In this document: one piece after another, positions 2,045-53,760 of the stretch
How the letters are laid out: every line of letters starts with the position of its first letter
Numbering within the stretch: position 1 is the stretch's first letter
Assembly (NCBI RefSeq): GCF_018873765.1
Contig: NC_057920.1
Coordinates: forward strand, 14,831,307 to 14,895,306
DNA: 64,000 nucleotides
Direction: 5' to 3'
Source of the DNA: Telopea speciosissima
Lineage: Eukaryota; Streptophyta; Magnoliopsida; Proteales; Proteaceae
Program-made: the position numbers and the translations under genes
The notes under the pieces: generated by a model
What the model saw: the letters and a program-made list of their open reading frames with translations, nothing else
Database searches by the model: none
What the model was told of the DNA's origin: nothing

Positions 2045-3246
2045 GTATGAAGATTACAAAGTTGTTTTTGCAATTTATGAAAACTATCTCTGATCAAAAG
2101 GAGTAACTCGTACCGATCAACCTCCATGATATAGCCTCAGGTTCGGCTTTGCTGTAAATAAATCTTTAAGGGCTATTGGGACATCAGAATAAGGATATGA
2201 AATAAGGTTAAGAATTATAGATGGAGGGCAAACTAGGAATTGAGGCTAAAATAAGGAAAGGTGGAATAAAATGGCACGGGTATAAAAGGAAAATATTTAT
2301 TTTTTTAACACAATGTGGATGACATAGGAAGGGGGTAAATCTGGAAAAGAAAAATAAGGCTAAAGTGTAAGTGGGGCTTACAGGGGGATAGTTTGGGAAA
2401 TAAAAAGGAAAAACTTAAAGATAAAGGAGCAAAAGGGAATTGGGAGAGGGATATCATGTTTGAGAGGAACTCACTCTCAGAAGACCGAGAAGGAAGGGAG
2501 CTCCGCGACTTCAGAAGACGGCAAAGAGGCGAGGGAGCCGACCAATCTAGAGAATGGGAATCAACTCGCAGCGGGAAGAAGGAAAAATCAGGTACGATTT
2601 CTCTTTCTTTCTTTTTTTTAGATTCCTCTTCTGGGTCGATCAAGGTCAGGGTAATGAGGGAATAGGGGGCGCTCCAGACGGTGAAAGTGGTTCTGTGGAA
2701 TCGAAGGAGGTGGTTCTGGGTTTCTGGTTAGGGTTGGATTTGATATTAGGGTATGCAGTTTCAGCGGAAGATGGCCTTTTTTTTTTTTGAGGGAGTCAAA
2801 GGGTTAGGGTTGCCGTCGGTTGGAGTTTCAATGGAGTCGAAGGAATGGGGTGGGGTTACTGGATGCAGTGGGAATCAATGGAGAGGTAGGGTTGTGTAGT
2901 ATTTGTGGGATGCGGCTGGGGATTGTTGTGGATTTCAATGGGGGGTTTTTTTTTTGGGGGGGGGGGGGTGGGATGGAGCTGGGGATTGTTGTGGATTTCA
3001 GTGGGGTTTTTTTTTTTTTTTTGGGGGGGGGGGTAGATCCTAAATGGTTGCAGCGGTAAGGGAAGAAGATAGGATTAGTTTTCTAGTCTGGAGAGGGGGG
3101 TTGTGATAATCAGAGGATTGGGTTGGGGGTTTGGCTGATGTCGTAGGGTTGGGGTTTGCTGCCCCTTTTTTTCAATGCTGATGGCAGAAACAGAACAGGA
3201 CAAAATTTTGGGGAAGGAGATGGATCCTTCGACTCAGATACCAAAT
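2045..3246. other. Interior of the LTR element with G-rich and homopolymer tracts
   Basis: No gag-pol protein can be read. The segment has purine-rich DNA (2390-2680) and two near-identical units around 2905-3045. Each unit has a run of G following a run of T and the phrase 'tggggattgttgtggattt', so this is a short tandem duplication. The primer-site-like sequence is at the 3230-3246 end. Confidence 0.5.
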
Positions 3247-3659
3247 TGGTGGAGGGCCAGTTAGGAGAGGGGAAGAAATCTGAGAAAGGAATATCAAAGT
3301 TGCAGGGAGAGGGGAAATCGTATAAGAAGAAGGGGGAAGGAACGTACAAAACCAGCCATGCAGTTTCTTCACAAACACAAACTTAATTCATCTTTTTCAA
3401 TCTATTCAACAATGGGAAATTACACCATATATAAAGAGAAATAAAAGACTCCTAAAAATAAAGACCAACTCTCTAACTAGGAAACTTATTCATATAAGGA
3501 AACTAATAACAATTGGGAAACCAAATACCCTACGTAGCGAACTTCTAAAATAAACTAAAAGACATTATTTCCCAAATAATCTAAATTCCTAAAGTTTGAG
3601 AAATAAAAGACTCCTAAAAATAAAGACCAACTCTCTAACTAGGAAACTTATTTATATAA

Positions 3660-5171
3660 GGCCATCTTTGGTATAGTTTTTATTTTTGATTTTTGCCTTA
3701 AAAACGTTTTTGGTTGCGTTTGGTATGGTTTATGGAGCCTGTTTCTATTTAAAAAAGAGTGAAAAAAATCAAAAACCAAAAATAGATCGAAAGCCGTTTA
3801 TGGTTTTTGGCCAAAAATCACTTTTGACCATTTATGCGGGACTTTAATGAGCACGTGCTCATAGCTCTCAAAATCGAAGGGTGAAAGCGTCTTTTCATCG
3901 TTTAATTAGAATTATCAAACCTCCTGCTCCTTTTCCTCGTCATCCTCCTCTTTCTTCTTCTTCTTCTTCTTCTTCTTCTTCTTTCTGCAACCCATCCGCC
4001 ATCGGTACCCAATAGTTGTTTACCCCTTTATGATGACGGATACGACGGAGGATTTGATCTTTGTCGAGGGTCTCTAAAGTTTGAGAAGGTTTCAGGTAAA
4101 GGCAGCTGCTCACTGTGTTTAGGGTTTCTGCTTCTTCTCTTTCCTTTGAGTTGGATTTTCCACTTGTGAGTGTACACTTTGAAGCTAAAGAGGGTTTATT
4201 TCTTTATAGGACTCGAGGGGAGTGTGTCTCTGTGATCTCTGCGTCTTAGTGTCACTGCGATTAATAGATCTAAGGCCTAATGGAACATTTTTATAGGGTT
4301 GGTTGATCGGTGGCTTTGGGCTTTTTTCTGAGTGGAAGTACACTTCCAAAGAATAGCCTAAAGATAATACTGGAGGGTTGTAAAGACCTGATTCTATTGG
4401 ATGCAAGGAATTGCAGTGGTTTTGAAGAGGATGAGGAAGAGATATTGAAGATGGCATCTCAAATCAAGACATCCATTTTTTGATGGTTCAGTATCTTTCT
4501 GTTTGGACCCTTTCAAATCATACTATTACTCCCATTTATTCTATCAAACCATGAAAAATAGCTACTTCGTGTCCAGAATCCTTCAGTCTTTAGCCTCCTG
4601 TAACCCCTTCTTTGAACTATCTGAGTATCTGAACACTTTAGCCCTAACCATAACCACCTCAGAAGCTAGTGAAATCCTCCAAGCCCTCGAATTCTTCCGC
4701 TTCTGTTCCTCTTCAATCCCCGGTTATCGACATGATTGCTTCACCGACAATCGACTTCTTACCATTTTGGCCAAGTCGTCTGCACCCGATTCTATCCAAC
4801 TTGTTCATGGGATTGTTGATGAGTTGGAACAATTGGGTATGAGGGGTAGCATTTCCACGGTCAATATCTTTATTTCAATTATTTTTCTATTCTTTTAATT
4901 GAATTGACTGTATCAATTTGATTAATCTGGGCTTCTTCTCATTCCTTTCTGTTTTCGCAGGAAGGAAGATGGGTGAAGAGGGAATCTCTTCATCCACCAT
5001 TTCTTCAAAAAATTATTCTACACATAGACATACCAATCCATTTATCATTCCACACTCTATTATGTCTAATGTTTACCAAACGATTTTTAGTTTTTGATCA
5101 AAAATAGTTTTCATTAATGATTTTTGTTAAATAGACAAAAATCAAAAATAAAAACTATACCAAAGAGAGCC
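3660..5171. mobile_element. PIF/Harbinger-like element carrying a PPR gene fragment, TSD TAA
   Basis: The left end reads GGCCATCTTTGGTATAG and the complement of the right end reads GGCTCTCTTTGGTATAG. The match continues inward for about 38 bases with few differences. The element is flanked by TAA on both sides (3657-3659 and 5172-5174). A 3-bp TAA/TTA duplication with GGCC..TTTGGT-type ends is typical of PIF/Harbinger and Tourist-like elements. The empty site is visible in the other LTR copy and in the internal LTR duplication near 3497, where 'ataaggaaactaataac' is uninterrupted. No transposase is present. The 1.5-kb body holds a TTC repeat (3954-3981), leader-like sequence and the PPR-like frame. 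Confidence 0.8.
4503..4898 (+). pseudogene. PPR protein N-terminal fragment captured by the transposon
   Basis: The frame (about 120 meaningful residues) contains ALEFFRFCSSSIPGYRHDCF, then NRLLTILAKS and DSIQLVHGIVDELEQLGMRG. This resembles the region before and into the first helices of plant P-class pentatricopeptide repeat proteins, organelle RNA-binding factors. Similarity stops near 4865 after 'STVNI', where the frame runs into TTT-rich sequence; a possible acceptor 'tttcgcag' follows at about 4961. Only one partial repeat is present, against ten or more in a functional PPR protein. It is therefore a captured 5' gene piece, possibly with its leader, not a working gene. The assignment rests on pattern, not alignment. 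Confidence 0.55.
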
Positions 5172-7925: not shown

Positions 7926-8627
7926 TATGGTACTTTTGGAGAGCCAGGAACGATCTCATCTACAATAAATTTTCTTGGTCTCCCATGGATGTTATTAAAG
8001 CTACTAATTAAGCTTTTCAAGAATTCCAGCAGGTTAATTTACATCCATCCATCACTTCTATTCCTACAGAGTCTTCTCTATCTCCTATTCAGTCATTGGC
8101 TGCTAAATGGACTCCTCCCTTGGCTCCTTGGGTTAAATTGAATGTTGATGCTGGCTGAAACAAAGGTTCGAATAATGGTGATCATCCGAGATCACTTTGG
8201 CCTTCCTCTCTCGACGTATTCATTTGGGGTTCAATGCGACTCAACCTTTATTGGGGAAGCTATAGCCATTTGTTCTGGGCTCTTGCCTGCAATTAGGGGT
8301 GGCCTCAAGAAGGTTTTGGTGGAATTTGACTGCTCCAGTTTAATCAACCAAATCGCTTCTTCTAATCCAGATATTGCTATTAGCAGCATTTTCCATGATA
8401 TTGTTCTTTTACAAAAATCTTTTGATGATTGTTCTTTCTCCTTTGTTCCAAGGTCTGTCAATTCTGTGGCTGATTCCTTGGCCAGGTCGGCCCTTTCGGT
8501 GGAGTCCCTGAAAGTTTGGCCTCTTACCACTCCTTGGCTTCTACGTCTGTGTGAAGCAGAAGCCATTGGTTGTACTAGCTCCTTTTGTCAATGAAATTTC
8601 TCTTTACCCAAAAAAAAAAAAAAAAAG
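7926..8627 (+). mobile_element. 5'-truncated L1 LINE, 3' end with RNase H and poly(A)
   Basis: Plus-strand translation begins TFWRARNDLIYNKFSW and aligns with WKARKDMIFNAKSW in the L1 at 42358. It then gives PWVKLNVDAG and the RNase H part (8142-8594), including GEAIAICSGL, VLVEFDCSSLINQI and SFVPRSVNSVADSLARSAL. The element ends with 'ctctttaccc' followed by about 16 A (8611-8626), the 3' end style of the other plus-strand L1. A stop interrupts AFQEF and a frameshift lies near 8155. It is a dead, 5'-truncated retrocopy. No target duplication could be fixed. Confidence 0.8.
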
Positions 8628-9090
8628 AGTATTTAAATTTAAATGTAATTAAATAATAAAGATCATAGCAAATATAAAAAAAGAAAAAAAGAAAATCACA
8701 TATCAATGATTTATGAATTTATTTTTTTTTCATTTACCAAGAAGAGTAGTTGAGAGGATATACGAGGCAGGGAACGTCATGTGTCCTCCACCTCACCTCT
8801 TTAGGGAGAGAGAGAGAGAGAGAAACAAATAAAGAGTTGCCTAAGACCCACATAAAACATAAAATTGACTCCATGACCACTCACCGGGGAAATTGGTCGA
8901 ACCGTCAATCTGATTGTGGTTCAATGTTTGGTCTTGAGAAGGTGTCAACCCGGTCCCCCCGGTTAAAATGGTCTCCTTATTACTTGGCCAAACTAAATAT
9001 AGCACATGCAACTAAATAAGCCAAATAAAATACAAGAAATAAAAGATAGGGTTTATGGCACATACCTGGAGCTTTTGGCTATATAACAAG
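8628..9090. other. Intergenic DNA, no gene recognised
   Basis: AT-rich DNA with a short GA repeat at about 8806-8822. Nothing coding or with clear repeat borders is visible. The small open frame at 8750-9019 lacks family features. Confidence 0.4.
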
Positions 9091-9250
9091 GGTTAAATGA
9101 GCATGCACCCCCGAAATCGTCCCAATATTCCACATGCCCCCTAAGATTCTGATAATTTCACACACACCCCTTGAAAATATCATGGGCACCCCCTACTTTT
9201 CAAATTAATCTCATTTAAATCCACGCCATTAATATCAGGCGTTATACGTT
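9091..9250 (+). repeat. Left terminal inverted repeat of the Pack-MULE-like element
   Basis: It begins GGTTAAATGAGCATGC and pairs with the complement of 10778-10934, which begins GGTTAAATACACATGC. Several 12-20 base blocks are identical. Similarity fades near 9250. Confidence 0.7.
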
Positions 9251-9591
9251 AAAAATTTATTTTATTGGCCAAACTACCCTTTCTTCTAACCACCCTATAA
9301 TTTGAAAAGACATTTTTGCCCAACCCTCATCTTCTTCTTTTACAATCCCACACAATCAAACCCTAAAATTATCCAATCACCCACAGTAACAATGCTTATT
9401 AAAACGAGCATCATCATCATCATAAAAAAGTTCCAAAAAAAAAAAAAAAAAGTGGAACAGGCACTCTAAAATCCCATCTCCATTCTAAAATTTGATGCTA
9501 AATCTAGGGTTTTAAAAATCATTGTGCTCCACAAACGATGAGTGGAGGAGGGTCTGAACACCTTAATCGTCGGGAATCGGGGGAACAAGCC

Positions 9592-9985
9592 ATGAGAAAG
9601 GACAAACAACCGGCGGCCGTCATCGGCAAATTCTTTGTATGCTTCGAGACCAAACCCTTGGTGGCTACATGGGTGGTGGTGACGATGGTCATGATGATTT
9701 GGAACCTCCAGCCCTACTACGACAACTTTCTCTCCTGCACCAGCCACTGATCTTCCTCCGCCACATCCACCGCCACGTCTTTTCACCCAATTTCTCCATT
9801 AAACCTTCGGATGAAAAGAAGAAGTTGTTGTCCACCGCCCTCAGCCCGAAACCCTCCCCACCGAAAGCGGCCGACCCAAACAAGTGTCTCTTCTACTCTT
9901 ACGGCAACGCCGCCTCTTTGTTCGTCCAAATGGGTGCTTACCATGGCGGTCCCCAAACCTTCGCCATCGTTGGCACACAGCAATT
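9592..9985 (+). pseudogene. Galactan beta-1,4-galactosyltransferase (GALS-type, GT92) 5' fragment
   Basis: The fragment starts MRKDKQPAAVIGKFFVCFE, continues TKPLVATWVVVTMVMMIWNL and QPYYDNF, then stops at 9748-9750. Another frame from about 9740 continues with ADPNKCLFYSYGNAASLFVQ and MGAYHGGPQTFAIVG. This is the N-terminal layout of plant GALS proteins: a short cytosolic tail, one membrane anchor, a variable stem, and the start of the luminal domain with a GNAA..F..MGAYRGGP-like signature. GALS enzymes extend pectic galactan from UDP-galactose in the Golgi. Only about 130 residues remain, with a frameshift, so it is not functional. Similarity ends near 9975. Confidence 0.65.
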
Positions 9986-10142
9986 AGAGCTAGGTAATTC
10001 CAATAAATCCAATGATCATAATTCAGAACCGAACAAGATATCAAAAATCTGAGACCCTAAACACACTTAGAAACAAATAGAACAAAGATGAAAGTAAAAT
10101 CAATAAAACAGAGCAGAGCACAAAGTCCAATCTGCTCCATAC

Positions 10143-10325
10143 TTGGTGAAAGATGAGGTTACTGTCGAATTCACCAGCAAGTTCTTTCACTCTTTGAATG
10201 GCCACCTCGGAGGATTTATGGAGATTATCTATAACTGTGGCTTTAAATCCACCTGACAAGAGTTGAAGAACCATGTGGCTGCCGATATATTCAGCACCAC
10301 CAGTGACCAGAATGGTTTTCATCAT
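10143..10325 (-). pseudogene. UDP-glucose 4-epimerase first-exon fragment
   Basis: Sixty-one codons begin [17 protein letters not shown] and include [16 protein letters not shown] and [10 protein letters not shown], ending in FHQ at a retained donor GTATGG (10137-10142). This is the N-terminal NAD-binding part of plant UGE enzymes, which interconvert UDP-glucose and UDP-galactose. The glycine-rich motif normally reads TGGAGYIGSH; here one Gly is Glu (GGAEYIG), expected to harm NAD binding. Only the first exon, some following intron and upstream leader-like DNA were captured. The full enzyme is about 350 residues. It lies tail-to-tail with the GALS-like fragment. Confidence 0.75.
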
Positions 10326-10777
10326 GGACAAAAGTGATTTTTTAAGCTGAAAAAGCAGTGAAGGAAGACTGAATACTAAGATCTAAGCAACGGAGAGAAG
10401 TGAAGTTAGTTGTAAAGAAACCAGAGAGTTCGAATCGATTCTAGAGCACAAAAGAGATTTAAAAACTCGATTGGACTTCCCACCATTTTTTATACTTAGC
10501 AACTTTTGGAGATTCGCATTACGTTCCACGATGCCGATGGAGTGACGCTCGCGGTAAGGGCTGCTCTGGAGCCGTGGGTGAGAGATGGGAGGGCGATGGT
10601 TCAGGACATTAGAGGTCAGGCAGAGTTTGGGGTAAGATTTGGGGAAGAAGATGATGATTTGGGGAAGATGAGGGTCTTTTGGTCTTTCCTCCAATCTACT
10701 CATAAGGGCATTGTGGTAATAATGCCCTAGTGAGTGTATAATTGTACATTACAGTCTTCGATTTCAGATCTGTTAGC
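10326..10777. other. Interior of the Pack-MULE-like element upstream of the UGE fragment
   Basis: This probably includes the captured UGE 5' leader just above 10325. A plus-strand open frame at 10506-10730 has 74 codons and no recognisable family. It could be a third captured piece or chance. Confidence 0.3.
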
Positions 10778-10934
10778 TTTTAATGCCTAATATTAACAAC
10801 GTGGACTTAAATGGGATTAATTTGAAAAGTAGGAGGTGATCGTGGAATTTTTAAGGGGTGTGTGTGGAATTGTCAGAATCTTAGGGTGTATGCGGAATAT
10901 TGGGACGATTTTAGGGGGGCATGTGTATTTAACC
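10778..10934 (-). repeat. Right terminal inverted repeat of the Pack-MULE-like element
   Basis: Reverse complement of the left repeat with scattered substitutions; it ends 'tatttaacc' at 10934. Confidence 0.7.
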
Positions 10935-12180
10935 TGTTAAAAGTGAGTCTTCGACACCAAGAGCTGATTAACAGTAATTCATATAAAGCAATGGTTAAAT
11001 CAAATCGTTTTTGCCCCATTATTTAGGACATAGTCTGTAATGGTATGCAAAGTTTGGGATCAATTTGAAAAAGTTTGGAGGTTATATACATTATAACGGC
11101 ATTATGGTCATTTTCTTAGAGAACCTCTTACATCTTTTTATATTGAGATTTTCGATGAAATTCTAGAACACTCTAATCATCATTGTTGATACAATTCCCG
11201 GGGTGACAAAGGTCAATGTCTATAGGTGGTGGTTTGATTTTGTGAAAATCTTTTAAACGATCATATGGGAGTATGGGACAATGCCTATGAATTGCGGGGG
11301 TATGTTAATTGTGGTACATGCTATGAGCTTACCTAAGTGGATGTAGGGGTGAGGCCATCTCTGATGAGATTTGTATGGAAAATTTCTTTAAACATTTATG
11401 ATCTAAGATGGAGACATCCACTCAAATATATAGGGTACATTGAAGGGTCAGATGATAAGAGATTAGTGGTAGGTCAGCCGGCTACTCCAATGAGAAAAGG
11501 TTCAATAAGTCTGACTTCACATGTGCTCTGTAACATAGCCTATCAAACTTAGTGTAGATTCAAATATGGAAGATTTCTAACTATAATGTGTCTTATCTTT
11601 CTAATTTGCTCAAACTATTCTGTTTTGCCAATATTTTGTATTTTGTGGGGGGAGAGTACTGTTTGTTTTAAAATAAATTTAAATCAAAAATTCAAAATAC
11701 CTGTTTTTGTTTTGCTTGGTTTCCTTCATCATGCCATGTTGTATTGCGGCACTATGAGATGAGGTGCAGGTTTGTGAGTATTTTCTTCTTGGGTGGTATA
11801 GTATTTATAATGGAGAGAAGGGGTATCTATGTATAGACACACCCCTTATAGGCAAGAAATATATCTCTTGGATGAGATACACTCTTACATATACAAAGAG
11901 GTATAAATCATACCCCCTACAATCCTACATATGAGGATAGACATCTCTACATACTTGAAAAAAGTATGAAGATGTGCCTCAATGTAAAAGAGACATGTCC
12001 ATACATAGTGTTGAGCCGTTACTAAAAGGAAGCTATATTTGGAGGCGTGATCATAATCAAGGATTTAGAATCCTAGTTGTATAAACCAGATAGACACAAC
12101 CCTTCAAACAGGTGCCGTTGAAAAGATGTCTTTCCTCTATAAATGGAGGGAGTAGCCAGCATCTCAATTCACTCAATTTG
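10935..12180. other. Intergenic repeat-like DNA without recognised genes
   Basis: No coding region is recognised. A frame at 11337-11552 contains MRKGSISLTSHVLCNI and has no family match I know. The segment 11810-12000 has many short palindromic phrases (tatgta/tacata) as in some plant LTRs, but no ends could be set. Confidence 0.3.
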
Positions 12181-13290: not shown

Positions 13291-14326
13291 CTCCTAAATT
13301 ATAATTGTTTATTGGTTGTGATAATTAACTGGTTACTCAATTTTTTCCTATTCTCTATTTTACCCTTGTAAATAATTATTGTTAAAAATCTACTTCTTCT
13401 ATTTCTTATTTTGCCATAATAAATAATCTTTTATTTTTCTAATAATATAAAATTCTAGTGAGACCCACATCACCAACCCCTCCTCTTCTTCTCCTGTAAC
13501 CCCACCAGCCCCCACCCCCTGCTGCAATCCAACTTAATCCCACACGGCCCTAACCCCTGCTGCAATGTAACGCACCGGCCACCATGCCCCACCCTCCCTG
13601 TCTTCCCCTTCCCTCTGATCTTTCCCACCATCCCACCCTACCCCATCCCATGCTGCGATATCAGCCCCATTGCGACCCCAAACCCCCACCCCCTGACTCC
13701 ATCCGGCCACAGAGTCTCCCTCCGCGATCCTACCCCTTTACGATCTCAAGCAGCTCAGCTGCGACGACTTCGGCTGATGTCAGATGAGAAAAGCTCGGTA
13801 TATATCAGCGGGTCTAAAGAAGGGCAATACAGGAAGTGAAGCAGAGGGGGGGGGGGAGAAAAAGAGAAGATAGCAGAAGGAAGACAAGGGATCATGCATC
13901 GTTTTCATCCCATGAATAAGAAACCGTCATGGGCTTTGGAGAAGCGCAGATCATGTCAGCAGCGAACTTGGGCTCTAGGGAACCAGTTCCAATGAAAGGT
14001 GCAGTAGTAGAAGAGAACAAAGAAGAGTGATTGAAGAAGACTCTGTCGTCACCACCATCATTCATGGTAGAAATTGAAATCCCAAATAAGCCTTATAGAC
14101 GCAATGAACTCAACACCATTATCTCTGCACTTCTTCTTCCCCTCCTTTTCTTTAGGTACAAGTCTTCGATACCTTCAGGCATACCAGGGGATCATCACTA
14201 GTCCTCTCTATTTGATCAATTCTAAGTCAAGATTCAATATATTCTATTGCAAATGATTTATTATATGTGATTATTTTTTAATTAAAATGTTGGTTTTTTA
14301 AAGATGAAATCAAAAGTTTCAGAGAG

Positions 14327-14665
14327 GTGGTGGTGCTTCCTAGTTATTTGTATTTTCTTGAGAGAGGTAAGAGCCCATTTGAAGTATACACTGAACAAGA
14401 ATGTTCTTTGATAAAGACTGCAGTAGAGGATCATAACCGTTCATTTAATGATCTAAATACTGTCTTTTTGTTTCTGCCAAAGCAGCAAACAGGAACACAA
14501 GTGGAGTCGTACAAAGAGTACTTCCTTAAGGTGTGGAACGCCCCCTATATGTGCAGATCCGGGTTAACCTTGGCGTTCTACCTCAAAGATAAATCACTTC
14601 AATCGCAATTGGCAGCACCCAAAAGTGATTACAATATGGAGTACCCAAAGGTAATTGCTCAGTAA
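14327..14665 (+). pseudogene. Open frame of unknown origin inside the long-TIR element
   Basis: Uninterrupted frame of 112 codons with protein-like composition: SPFEVYTEQECSLIKTAVED, SFNDLNTVFLFLPKQ and VESYKEYFLKVWNAP. I do not recognise the family. Its position between long terminal repeats suggests a captured host-gene fragment. A stop at 14663-14665 precedes the LTR-like segment. It may equally be chance. Confidence 0.3.
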
Positions 14666-14740
14666 TCAGAAAGGAAGAAGAAGAAGAAAGGAAACAAACA
14701 GAATGCAGAGAGCACACTGTTTGAAGAGAACAGGAAACAC

Positions 14741-14808
14741 TTGCACGAATTGTATTTGAAACCCAAAGCCCATTAGCACGAATTGTATTTGAAACCCAAA
14801 GCCCATTT
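14741..14808 (+). repeat. 33-bp tandem duplication
   Basis: The phrase 'gcacgaattgtatttgaaac' plus 'ccaaagcccatt' occurs twice in succession. Confidence 0.75.
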
Positions 14809-15153
14809 GTATTTATAGGCCTACCAGTACCTGTACGTATGGGATGTGTCTCTACACACTTGTACATGTACAGACATGTACACTTTCATATACAAACCCC
14901 TCTACGTATAGGTATGTATACATACTAAGTCCCTACGTATGGGTGCATGTATATGCATGTGCCTATCCTTGCCTCAGGGCACGCGTGTGTGAAAAGCACC
15001 CTGGACCCCAACCTCACACAAGGAACAAGGAAGACTTCCCCTAGAACCCTGTGTCCCTTGTAAGCTACATGAGCTCATATTAGCTCACTTTTCTACTTGT
15101 CCCTAAGCAATGTGGGACTAAACTTGAAGAGGTACTCAAGCCTTTTCAAGTTT

Positions 15154-15565
15154 CCTAATGTTGGATTTTGTGTTTTCAAAAAATAGTTTCAAAGCTTTCA
15201 TTTTTCAAATGCTATTTTTGAAATATAAGTTTCAAATATGAAAAACCATTTCCCTCCACTTTGTTTTGATTTTGTTGGAACACTTGTATATGTGTGTGCA
15301 TGGTGGTTTGAACCAAGGACCTCTAGTGTAACCTTGTAAGGAAACTTGAAAAGGCTTGAGTACCTCTTCAAGTTTCCATACAAGGTTACACTAGAGGTCC
15401 TTGGTTCAAACAACCATGCACACACATATACAAGTGTTTCCAACAAAATCAAAACAAAGTGGAGGGAAAGAGTTTTTCATATTTGAAACTTATATTTCAA
15501 AAACAACATTTCAAAAAATGAAAGCTTTGAAACTATTTTTTGAAAACACAAAATCCAACATTAGG
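15154..15565. repeat. ~410-bp near-perfect inverted repeat (long hairpin)
   Basis: From 'cctaatgttggattttgtg' at 15154 the sequence reads to a centre near 15358 and then returns as its complement, ending 'cacaaaatccaacattagg' at 15565. Mismatches are few: two or three short ones in about 200 bp per arm. There is almost no loop; even the centre 'aaggcttgagtacctctt' is close to self-complementary. A further copy of the central phrase ('gaggtactcaagcctttt') stands just left at 15130-15147. A transcript across it would fold into a long double strand suited to DCL2/3/4 processing. No coding role is seen. Confidence 0.85.
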
Positions 15566-16096
15566 CCATTTGATCTCTCATATTGGAGACGTGGAAGGTG
15601 TTGACTTTTGATAGAACACAACTACCCAACAACATTGTGGGGGGTTTGGGGTCGCAGCGGGCCTGAGATCGCTGCAGGGGGTGGGAGGTTGGGAAAGGAA
15701 CAGAGGAAGGGGGGAGACGAGGGAGGGTGAGGCATGGTGGTAGCTGGCTGCAGTAGGGGTTAAGGTTGGGTGAGATTGGGTTGGGTTGTAGTAGAGGGTG
15801 GGGCCGGTGGGGTTGAAGGAAGAAGAAGAAGAAAATAAGAAGAAGAAAAGAAGAAAAAAAGGAGAGGGGACTGGTATACCAAAAAAAAATATCTACAAGG
15901 GTTAAATAGGAATTAGGAAAAAAAAATTGAGTAATCGGTTAATTATAATCTAGTTTAGGTATCCAAACATAATATATGAAACATTAGGTACCTAAGTTAG
16001 AGTATATCAAAATGTTAGATACCTTGAATGCCATTTACCCCAAAAATAATGAGTACAACTAATAAGATAGATGTTTTCAATGAAATGTTGTAGACC

Positions 16097-17634
16097 GGTA
16101 GCAAACACCCGGGAAACCTAACGTATTGATATATTGTAGCTTAGGTACCCAACGTTTTATATATTGTGTTTGGGATACCTAAATTCGAATATAATTAATC
16201 CAATTATTTATTATTATTTTTTTTCCAAATGTACCTGTGAATAATTATTTTTATTTTTTAATATAAAAACCTAAGGACCCACGTCATCGTCTCCCCCACC
16301 CCTTCTTCTTCCTTTTCCTACAACATCGCCATTTCGCTCCCTATTGCAATCCAACCCAACCCCACCGTCATGCCCCACTCTCTCCGTCTCCCCCTCCCTC
16401 TGTTCCATAACATCTCTCCCACGTTCTTCGTACTTCCTTCTCTCTCTCTCTCTCTATGTAACCAATTTTTCTCCCAATGCTATTCTTCTTTTTTTGCTTT
16501 TTCGATGATGCCCATCCCTTGTTACCTTCCCTCGCTTCAAAGCGAAATTTATGAGAAATTTTAGTTTGCATGGTGTTCGGTCCTTTGAAGCATTTTATAG
16601 GAAGGAGAATAGAACAACGGAGGAAGAATGACGGATATCGCTCTTCCGATCATAGAGGAGTATGAGAGGAGGACCAAGATCTCTGATGAAAGAATAGGTG
16701 GTCGCCGAGAGAAAGTCTACATGATATCTTGTGTCCCTCTTCTTTCTTGGAGGCTCGATGGGGTCTCTTGGGTTAAGAAAGCTCAACAAAAAATTGACTT
16801 CGCTAAGACGGTTCTTGATCTCAAGTCTGAGCTCGTTCTCGCTGCCATTAACGGCTTCTTCTCAACCTGACTAATATCCAATTTTACGATTGCTGATTAG
16901 TCGATTTTCTTATGTAATTTTGTAACTCTCTTTTTTTAATGAAAGTGTAATCACACAAACCACACACCAATCCCAAAAGGTTAACCGTAATTTTGTAACT
17001 CTTGTACATAGAGTTTTTTTTATTTATTTATGGGGGGTGGGGGTAGGACTCTGTACATAAAGATTGTTAGCAAATGGTTTACAAACTTAAACTGAGTCTC
17101 TCTCAACCCTCCTCCCTTCAGTGTTGTTGTTGGATTTTTGTCTATGAGACTATAAGAGCCTAAACAATGAATATTTCTTTTCTGATTTTTTTGGGGGTCC
17201 CATTGTATAGAAGCGCCTACAAACTTTCTTTGCACCAAGATCATTCATTTAATCCAAATGAGTCATGGTATGTATTTCAGCTCATAAGAAAATTGGTGCC
17301 CAGGTTCTGCAGGTTCTTAATTTTCATGGTAGTGGGTTTAGGTTGGAGGGGTAGGGGCTGGTGGAGTTGGGTTGGGTTGTTGCAAGTAGCAAGGGCAGTG
17401 GTGTTGCAAAAAGAAGAATAAGGGGTTGGGGAGACAGTGATGTGGGTCCCTAGGGTCATATACTAAAAAATAAAAATAATTATTTACCAAGGTAAATGTA
17501 GAAAAGAGAAAAAAAAAATTCAATAATTGAGTTAATTATAATCCAATTTAGATACCTCAAATACAATATGTGAAACGTTGGGTACCTAAGCTAATATAAG
17601 TCAAAACATTTGGTACCCTGGGTATCATTTACCC
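16097..17634. mobile_element. Second long-TIR (MULE-like) element of the same family
   Basis: The left end 'ggtagcaaacacccggg' followed by 'ttaggtacccaacgtttta' is inverted at the right end (17570-17634: 'gtgaaacgttgggtacctaa', ending 'gggtatcatttaccc'). The terminal repeats continue inward through 'aattataatccaa' and a C-rich (left) or G-rich (right) tract, about 300 bp each. The same ends occur at 16038. The interior holds an open frame at 16628-16870. No 9-bp duplication could be established. Confidence 0.6.
16628..16870 (+). pseudogene. Probable captured gene fragment, 80 codons, origin unknown
   Basis: The frame MTDIALPIIEEYERRTK, then GGRREKVYMISCVPLLSWRL, ending QKIDFAKTVLDLKSELVLAA and NGFFST, has plant-coding character: charged amphipathic segments and GC-rich third positions compared with the surrounding AT-rich DNA. 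I do not recognise the parent gene. Its place between inverted terminal repeats fits a transduplicated exon. A function is not claimed. Confidence 0.4.
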
Positions 17635-39590: not shown

Positions 39591-42500
39591 GTGTGGCTAG
39601 CAATTGGATCTGATCACTGCCCCATTATGGTTGATACTGATGGTGCTTTTGTTAGAGGTTGACGACCATTTCATTTCGAAGCCATGTAGCTCTGCCACCA
39701 AGATTGTAAAAATGCAACTTCGAAAGGATGGGCAGCTCGTCCACATTGTTCAGCAGCCCACATTCTTCACCAAAAGCTCCTACATTGTAAATCCACTTTT
39801 CAGAAGTGGAATTCTAATGTTTTTGTTAAAGTGTAGGTGAGCCTTTGGAAATTAAAGCAAAAATTGGAGGACATTCAAGGTCTTCCTCAATCAGAGTTTA
39901 ATCAACATCAGGAGTTTGATCTTTTAAATCAATTGGATGAAGAATTACTACGTGACGAGGACCTATGGAGACAAAAGTCTCGCATCAGTTGGCTTCAAAG
40001 TGGGGACCAAGATACTGGCTTTTTTCATGTTTCAACGATTCAATGGCGTCATAATAATCGCATCATTTAGTTGAAGCTACCTTCAGGTACCTGGTCTTCA
40101 TCAGAGGGCGATATCAGTAATGCATTCCAGGAGCATTTTCAAAATATTTATTCATCTGAACCGTTTGATATGGAAGCATTATCTTAGACTATTGCAATGG
40201 TCAATCATGTTGTGCCTTCAGATCTAAATAATATTTTATGCCGTGTTCCCACTGTTGATGAGGTGCATCAGACGCTGTTCTCTATGGGGTCTTTAAAATC
40301 ACCTGGACCAGATGGTTTTCCTCCAGTGTTCTTTCAGAATTTTTGGGAGTTTACAAAGTTTGACCTACGTCACTTTATCACAAAGTTTTTTGTTTCAAGT
40401 TCAATGGCAAAGGAGATGAATAGGACATATATTTGTTTGAAACAGTGGACCAATTTCGCCCAATAAGTCTGTGCGGTGTATGCTTTAAGGTCATTACTAA
40501 GATTATTGCATACAGGTTAAAAGGTGCTCTTGATGATATAATTTTTCCAACTCAGTCGGCCTTCATACCAAATCGGGCGATTTCTAATAATATTCTTATG
40601 GCTCATGAGGCTTTCAACTATATTCAGAAGAAAAAAGAAAGGCAAGGCAAAATTCATGGCGCTAAAGTTGAACATGCAAAAGGCATATGACAGGCTCGAG
40701 TGGACTTTTATCCAGAGTATGCTTCTCAAACTCGATTTTTGTAACCGTTTTGTTGATATTGTTATAGAATGCCTCAAATCTATCTCATATATTATGCTTA
40801 TAAATGGTGTTGAAAAAGGACACAGTACCCCTACTCGTGGTATTCACCAAGGTGATCCTCTATTAGTTGTACTATTTATCCTTGCTCACAGGCATTATCA
40901 TCTATTATTAAAAATGCTGAAGACAGGAAAATTACATGGAATTCGGATACGCAATAGGACAATTCCGTTAACACATCTCTTGTTTGCGGATGATTGTCTT
41001 TGTTTTCACATGTCAAACTAAATGAAATTACTACTTTGAAAGGATGTCTAGATTTGTATTGTAGAGCTACTAGTCAAGCCATCAATTTTAGTAAATCCAG
41101 TCTCACTTTTAGTCCAAACACTGAAGCTCGTTTCAAGCGATGGTTTTCACGAGTACTTAAAGTACCATATGGAGACGGACCTTCCAAATACTTGGGGCTG
41201 CCTACGGAGTTTAGGGTTTCTAAGAAGGCTTTATTCAATGATATTAAAGATCGTACCCTCAAATGTCTCCAAGGGTGGAAGAAAAATCTCTTATCGCATG
41301 CAGGAAAGGAGGTAATGTTGAAATCGGACTTTTTCAATGTCAAATTTTGCATGCTCACATTTTAAAATGCCAACATCATATCATGATGATATAAGGAAGG
41401 CAACAACAAATTTTTATTGAGGGGATGATACAAAATCAGTGCATAATCACGCCCTTCTTGCAAAGTTGGCCTGACGGATTTGGTCCTCCCCAGACTCCCC
41501 ATGGGCACGATTTTTCAAAGCTATTTATTTTCCTCGAACTAATTTTCTAAATGCATAATTTGGAAATCATCTTTCATGGGTGTGGAGAAGTATTATGGAA
41601 GACCGATCTGTTTTGCTTGCAGATCTTGTTTGGCAAGTAAGAAATGGGGAAAACATTAAAATTTGGGAAGACAATTGGATCCTTCGGTAAAAGGCTTTCG
41701 TCCCACCAATCCAAAACCAATTGGGTGCACTCTTGAACGTGTAGTGGATCTCATTGATCATTCATGTAGATGGAATCCAATTGAAGATTTGTTAGGCACT
41801 ATCTTTCATCCTTGTGACAAAGCGATGATTATGCAAATCCAATTGAGCTTGTATCACTTGGACGATAAGCTCGTATGGAGCGGATAAAAAAATGGTGTTT
41901 TCACGATTGAATCGGCATACCAATTTTTTTAAACCAACAACATAATTTGGAAGTTCAACAACCATCTTCTTCTTAAACAAAACCTTGGGATATTGTCCCA
42001 AAAGTGTTTTGGAAAAGGATCTGGGGGTACCGAACTCTTCCAAAGATACGATTTTTCATGTGGCATGTTTGTGCACAAGGAGTTGCTTCAGGAGAAGGAC
42101 TTCATCATCGAAGTATTCCCATTGATCCATCCTGTTGGCGTTATGGTGCGGTGATGGAATCAACAGATCATATCCTTTTAGATTGCCCTTTTGCTAGGGC
42201 AATGTGGTTTGGTTCAAGGCTCACCTATGTAGTTCCATCCTCATTGAATCCAAAGATTTATGTATTGTTGCAGGAATGAGACTCAAGCTTCAAAACCTCC
42301 AAATCGGTGGGAAGAGACTCATTATCTTTTGGCTTTCTTCATTTGTCGGTATATTTGGAAGGCGAGAAAAGATATGATTTTCAACGCCAAAAGTTGGACA
42401 CTGGTTGAGGTTTTCGGTCAAGCTAAGAAGGCATTCCATGAATTCAAAAATGCTAACACTCCCACGACGTCTTCACCTCCTATTTCAGGACCAGCTACAA

Positions 42501-46000: not shown

Positions 46001-53365
<7,365 letters not shown>

Positions 53366-53760
53366 GATTTGCAGAATAGCCTCCCGTGTTTGCAGACGAG
53401 AGAACCATCAAATTGATATATAAAGAGTGCTGTTAATCATCAAGACAGATGAGATGGGATTATGGGAAGGGAAGGCTTAAAGCAAAGGGAAGGAAGAAGA
53501 GAAGAAAGAGGGGGTGGTCAAAGGAGGAGACTTTTTTGAAGCCACGACGGTGAGACAGGAGAGAGAAGAGGGAGAAGGGCGGTGATTGCTGGAGCTCCTC
53601 TCCCTGAGTTGAAATTTGGACGTGGACCGTGAAAGGGGAAAAAAACAGAAGAAAAAGAGATACAACCAAGGATTAACACAAATCGTTTTTGATTTGGTTT
53701 TATTGGTTTTCTTAATTCTCTGTTTTGTGACTTTTTCAAGAATTTGCATTATTTTTCTAT
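53366..53760 (-). promoter_or_regulatory. CDPK 5' leader and proximal promoter
   Basis: Directly upstream of the minus-strand start codon lies pyrimidine-rich leader sequence on that strand (plus strand purine-rich, 53460-53600), typical of plant kinase 5' UTRs. Short upstream open frames exist in this leader (53460-53749), one starting near 53669. They could affect translation if inside the transcript, but the transcription start is not known. Confidence 0.4.

Follow-up and report, generated by a model that had tools for sequence, protein, structure and literature searches.

The window, a 64,000-nucleotide stretch of the Telopea speciosissima genome (C5:14831307-14895306), contains a 1.84-kb non-autonomous Pack-MULE at 9091-10934. 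The element carries pieces of two enzyme genes, one nested inside the other. Our preferred reading, to which we give a probability of about 0.9, is that of a composite Pack-MULE which captured part of a GALS-type galactan galactosyltransferase gene, received a piece of a UDP-glucose 4-epimerase (UGE) gene within that capture, and then spread. Cores derived from an NB-ARC gene would have arisen in some copies by replacement, the captured pieces would encode no working enzyme, and the pairing of two genes from one sugar route would be coincidental. An earlier note on this DNA had already proposed a Pack-MULE with UGE and GALS pieces. Both of its gene calls proved correct, and both parent genes were located in the same genome (822,943,500 bases in 1287 contigs).

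On its contig the element occupies C5:14840397-14842240. Its inverted ends had been put at about 155 bp; they are present, and measure 162 nt per arm when aligned without gaps (K2P 0.20). The left arm gave at least 41 genomic matches at E<=0.001, with 40 of 297 first-look candidates scored. Part of the adjacent subterminal sequence (9253-9334) also occurred many times, in several cases adjoining a terminal inverted repeat (TIR) match. Some TIR matches paired into whole elements, five of them 1.2-2.1 kb long (L007, L009, L010, L026, and L034) and one of 7.8 kb (L033). In these relatives the terminus is GGGTTAAAT, one base beyond the coordinate in the earlier note, which suggests that the true first base of the left TIR may be 9090, GGGTTAAAT, rather than 9091. 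The positions of all features are collected in Table 1.

Table 1. Features of the composite element, in window coordinates.
Feature	Positions	Strand	Evidence
Left terminal inverted repeat	9091-9252	+	134/162 identical to right arm; matches across genome
Left subterminal MULE sequence	9253-9516	+	9253-9334 recurrent; no match in GALS parent
GALS leader, upstream of ATG	9517-9591	+	Matches GALS parent L075, position 2412 onward
GALS coding fragment, residues 1-131	9592-9974	+	tblastn, frameshift-aware and parent alignment
Joint between GALS and UGE, 3-nt	9975-9977	.	Compared with both parents by eye
Start of UGE intron 1	9978-10142	-	Parent L037/L077
UGE exon 1, codons 1-61, then GT donor	10143-10325	-	PDB E 1.8e-18; parent comparison
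UGE 5' UTR and upstream sequence	10326-10523	-	Aligns with parent DNA as far as 10523
Second GALS fragment, residues 272-306 by protein	10524-10634	+	100/111 to parent DNA
Right subterminal MULE sequence	10635-10772	+	Inner-most part beside TIR recurrent in genome
Right terminal inverted repeat	10773-10934	-	134/162 identical to left arm

Several members of the TIR family carry target-site duplications of 9-11 bp, judged by scoring six relatives and by inspecting further flanks by eye. Among the six, L009 had a perfect 9-bp duplication (9/9), followed by L010 (9/10) and L026 (10/11). Weaker duplications were found in L033 (7/9, inside a T run) and L034 (6/8), and none in L007. By eye, perfect 9-bp duplications also flanked L059 and L076 (9/9 each). 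L062 had A runs at both flanks, the duplication was not clear for L058 and L063, and a single flank was available for L066. The window copy scored 6/9 with its end set at 9091 (P 0.015) and at best 4/8 with the family terminus (P 0.29). Five ORFs of the element, chosen from 26 stop-to-stop ORFs of at least 40 aa over 8800-11300, gave no Pfam match at E<=1 that would indicate a transposase. Nor was a MULE transposase for the TIR family found among the ORFs of its 7.8-kb member, L033, which appeared LINE-like by eye. A search for the TIR pattern in viral contigs returned 0.

Several other features were observed elsewhere in the window. Two stretches, 15146-15573 and 15912-16230, align with themselves in reverse-complement orientation (92.6% and 69%), and further direct and inverted repeats lie within 13321-17634. 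An RNase H-like domain (RVT_3, E 6.7e-18) is encoded at 8142-8594, while weak matches below the cut-off were obtained for RVT_1 (40542-41021) and for a protein kinase (52874-53407).

The GALS pieces lie on the plus strand; the earlier note had recognized the 5' part of the gene. The first piece agreed with its parent at 413 of 458 positions and was matched by all 79 GALS homologues fetched. Its coding portion corresponds to residues 1-131 of the Protea GT92 protein P0016, and a Macadamia protein with the name GALS1-like, P0019, is in agreement. Comparison with plant proteins thus found GALS-type GT92 sequence in the 9592-9985 interval first assigned to it, with boundaries that shift to 9517, upstream of the ATG, and to 9974. 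A second fragment, at 10524-10634, was matched by 78 of the 79 homologues and by the solved galactan synthase 8d3t (E 7.5e-12). The parent is a full-length gene located at C5:6992412 and onward, in which two stretches together match P0016 residues 1-499. Relative to this parent, the coding fragment in the window has an in-frame TGA and a 1-bp deletion. When a single piece was used to search for GALS, 0 of 33 candidates passed. In a GALS tree the window fragment joined Vitis (support 0.48) and not Proteaceae. The tree thus lends no support to a Proteaceae origin of the fragment, which the parent in the host genome supports at the DNA level. Two further assignments were rejected. A frameshift-aware alignment had extended GALS across 10469-10523, where the UGE parent covers the DNA to 10523. 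A splice donor seen by eye where the second GALS piece ends was discarded, as L031 and L032 differ there and the parent continues coding.

The UGE piece lies on the minus strand and contains a first exon with its donor site, as had been reported from the sequence. Against plant proteins, 10143-10325 was confirmed as UGE, with 85% identity over 62 aa to the Telopea UGE P0001 and a DNA match to the parent. That interval holds exon 1; the UGE-derived stretch is much longer and runs over 9978-10523, of which 165 nt belong to intron 1 and 198 nt precede the ATG. The parent lies at C9:917362-917876, and its exon 2 (QIDLRDKP...) follows beyond the intron. No exon 2 is present in the window element. 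Among the 40 matches listed, a near-complete UGE piece was found only in the window, in a copy on C1, and in the parent (3 of 40). Exon 1 has an open frame in the window, where the GGAGYIG motif reads GGAEYIG, with a glycine changed to Glu. This glycine is important in the Rossmann fold. Judged from these pieces, the window copy would encode no working enzyme. As a separate observation, 9979-10099 within intron 1 is a dispersed repeat. With 40 of 56 candidates scored, it occurred at 87-94% identity in at least 37 places other than the parent and the composite copies.

Alignment to both parents revealed how the pieces are arranged. The earlier note had described two convergent fragments; because the third piece, 10524-10634, is again GALS, the UGE piece lies within a GALS capture and is not simply convergent with it. 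The antisense UGE piece takes the place of 419 bp that connect the two GALS segments in the parent. By eye, the first joint has 3 nt of filler and the second shares 1 bp. Divergence from the parents was K2P 0.107 for the first GALS piece, 0.108 for the second, and 0.095 for UGE, with 0.113 for the UGE piece of the C1 copy. The window and C1 copies are 0.085-0.189 apart, depending on the segment. These values suggest that the captures and the spread were close together in time. As GALS and UGE are alike in divergence, the order of the two captures cannot be read from age.

A search for further copies in the genome was successful. The UGE/GALS joint is spanned in at least seven places, including the window and C9:3725358 (40 of 893 candidates scored). 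A second composite copy extends from C1:54843770 to about 54862137 and has the same two inner joints. No match at E<=1e-3 was obtained between its flanks and those of the window copy, consistent with an element that has moved, and no target duplication was seen by eye. This copy lacks about 225 bp corresponding to 9526-9750 (leader and GALS 5' part), has lost the UGE ATG in translation, changes frame within GALS, and contains a short insert near its right end. It is also interrupted by an element that appears by eye to be flanked by a 5-bp duplication and has terminal direct repeats about 618 bp long and 92% alike (L031 about 4202-4819 and L027 859-1467). Another locus, L032 on C3, retains the GALS piece together with 28 bp of UGE before continuing into other sequence.

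Three relatives (L058, L062, and L066) hold a different core. Each begins with the GALS left boundary of the composite (parent position 2412 or 2414) and retains only leader sequence, to 2486/2487. A middle stretch of about 470-500 bp follows, mutually 91.6-94.9% alike, after which come UGE parent positions 3820-3905/3907 and then the GALS piece from 3297/3301. One translated piece of three scanned, the inserted stretch of L062, was recognized by Pfam as NB-ARC (E 2.2e-7, above the curated cut-off). We infer that these relatives derive from the composite through replacement of the core, since both of its outer edges are kept. The TIR family holds other gene fragments too. L034, on C11, has a leucine-rich-repeat fragment at 2555-3133 (LRRNT_2, E 1.4e-10), while seven selected ORFs from six other members gave no Pfam match at E<=0.01.

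One further TIR element, L076 (C4:13959001-13968000, element at 2761-4281), contains GALS parent positions 2721-3617 with 88 bp missing inside and gave no UGE match. It was considered as an ancestor from before the UGE capture and rejected, as its capture boundaries differ on both sides. L076 shares 1 of 8 derived sites of the window copy and 1 of 7 of its own, a weak test given that the corresponding numbers for the window and C1 copies are only 3 and 2. We regard L076 as a probable separate capture of this GALS gene.

Our data are best explained by the following series of events. A Pack-MULE took up the 5' part of a GALS1-type gene, whose parent lies on C5. A UGE piece from the parent on C9, comprising intron start, exon 1, and 5' flank, would then have entered the GALS capture in antisense and replaced 419 bp. 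The composite spread, with the UGE/GALS joint kept at the seven or more places, and in three copies the core would have been replaced once more, by a piece of an NB-ARC gene. Mechanistically, internal gaps of the element were probably repaired by copying unrelated genes, which would keep the outer parts and swap the core. We favor filling of mid-element gaps from unrelated templates because the outer layers stay in place while cores change among the relatives.

Alternatively, a single repair episode may have brought in both GALS and UGE, by template switching from GALS to UGE and back to GALS, perhaps aided by nuclear proximity. The similar divergence of all three pieces from their parents fits this model equally well, and it is also in keeping with a UGE piece between two collinear GALS pieces and with almost no shared letters at the joints by eye. 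However, the NB-ARC core of the relatives suggests separate, nested captures within one lineage, and we consider a single episode unlikely on balance. Its stronger form holds that co-expressed loci of the same pathway were nuclear neighbors when captured, such that the composition of the element records co-transcription; this we regard as very improbable. We give still less credence, close to none, to two unrelated elements or pseudogenes lying side by side with TIRs that are neighbors by chance. The window copy is indeed without a clear target duplication, as such an arrangement would allow. However, the left end, inner joints, and right end all recur in the C1 copy, which is interrupted by two inserts. 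Because of this, the two TIRs are assigned to one element, in agreement with the earlier note.

The remaining question is whether the shared sugar route is meaningful, as had been raised before. The two enzymes are functionally linked in Arabidopsis, where co-overexpression of AtUGE2 and GalS1 is synergistic (PMC4268804). This would suit a model in which small RNAs or antisense transcripts from the element act on both parents, with the pairing selected to tune the supply and use of UDP-galactose. GALS and UGE also lie on opposite strands, and a transcript of either strand would consequently be antisense to one parent. Exact parent matches of at least 21 nt amount to 182 nt in 6 runs for the first GALS piece, with one run each in the UGE exon (32 nt) and the UGE 5' flank (29 nt). 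As such runs remain to both parents, small RNAs matching both are possible. However, divergence from the parents is about 10%, and the second GALS piece has 0 runs of 21 nt. The three related copies are without most of UGE and GALS and carry the NB-ARC piece instead. Ka/Ks for the UGE exon was 0.68 between copies, from 5 synonymous and 12 other changes, and 0.30 in comparison with the parent, from 8 synonymous and 9 other, although these changes are too few to judge selection. Overall, we consider a selected regulatory role quite improbable.

The meaningful pairing is thus unsupported by the relatives of the element. Their NB-ARC cores and the leucine-rich-repeat fragment of a TIR-family member point to promiscuous capture, and the shared sugar route is therefore most likely a coincidence. 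This argument comes from the relatives and is not a statistic. None of our analyses favors meaning over chance, whereas the relatives favor chance. Capture from more than one gene is common in rice, as MULE-derived putative genes of O. sativa japonica with two or more parents numbered 264, against 1186 with at least one parent (PMC4858842, Table 2).

What appeared to be a pairing at the level of a pathway is resolved into nested gene capture of a promiscuous kind. One genome contains the parents, the joints, a sister copy, and relatives whose core differs, and gene uptake by Pack-MULEs thereby becomes testable. Elements of this kind are already known. What is new is the nested series, with GALS captured, UGE inside it, and NB-ARC inside that, for which both parents and several copies occur in a single genome. 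In one open-access library we found no pairing of Pack-MULE with UDP-glucose 4-epimerase, and nothing on Pack-MULE with "two different genes" or on nested capture in this sense.

Animal Pack-TIR elements (PMC8277862) resemble the window element in being inverted-repeat elements with captured host sequence, and gap filling with template switching has been proposed for their origin. They differ in being mostly single-copy and mostly of other superfamilies (hAT, TcMariner). The closer comparison is with the Pack-MULEs of rice, tomato, maize, and Arabidopsis. These are likewise non-autonomous, with long TIRs and gene fragments from distant parents (PMC3310237, PMC4858842). TIRs are typically 100-500 bp, and counts in four plant genomes range from 46 to 2853 (PMC3310237). 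Some known plant Pack-MULEs also have two or more parents (PMC4858842). Unlike these known systems, the element described here has its second gene nested in the first, a third gene as the core of its relatives, and a host among the Proteaceae.
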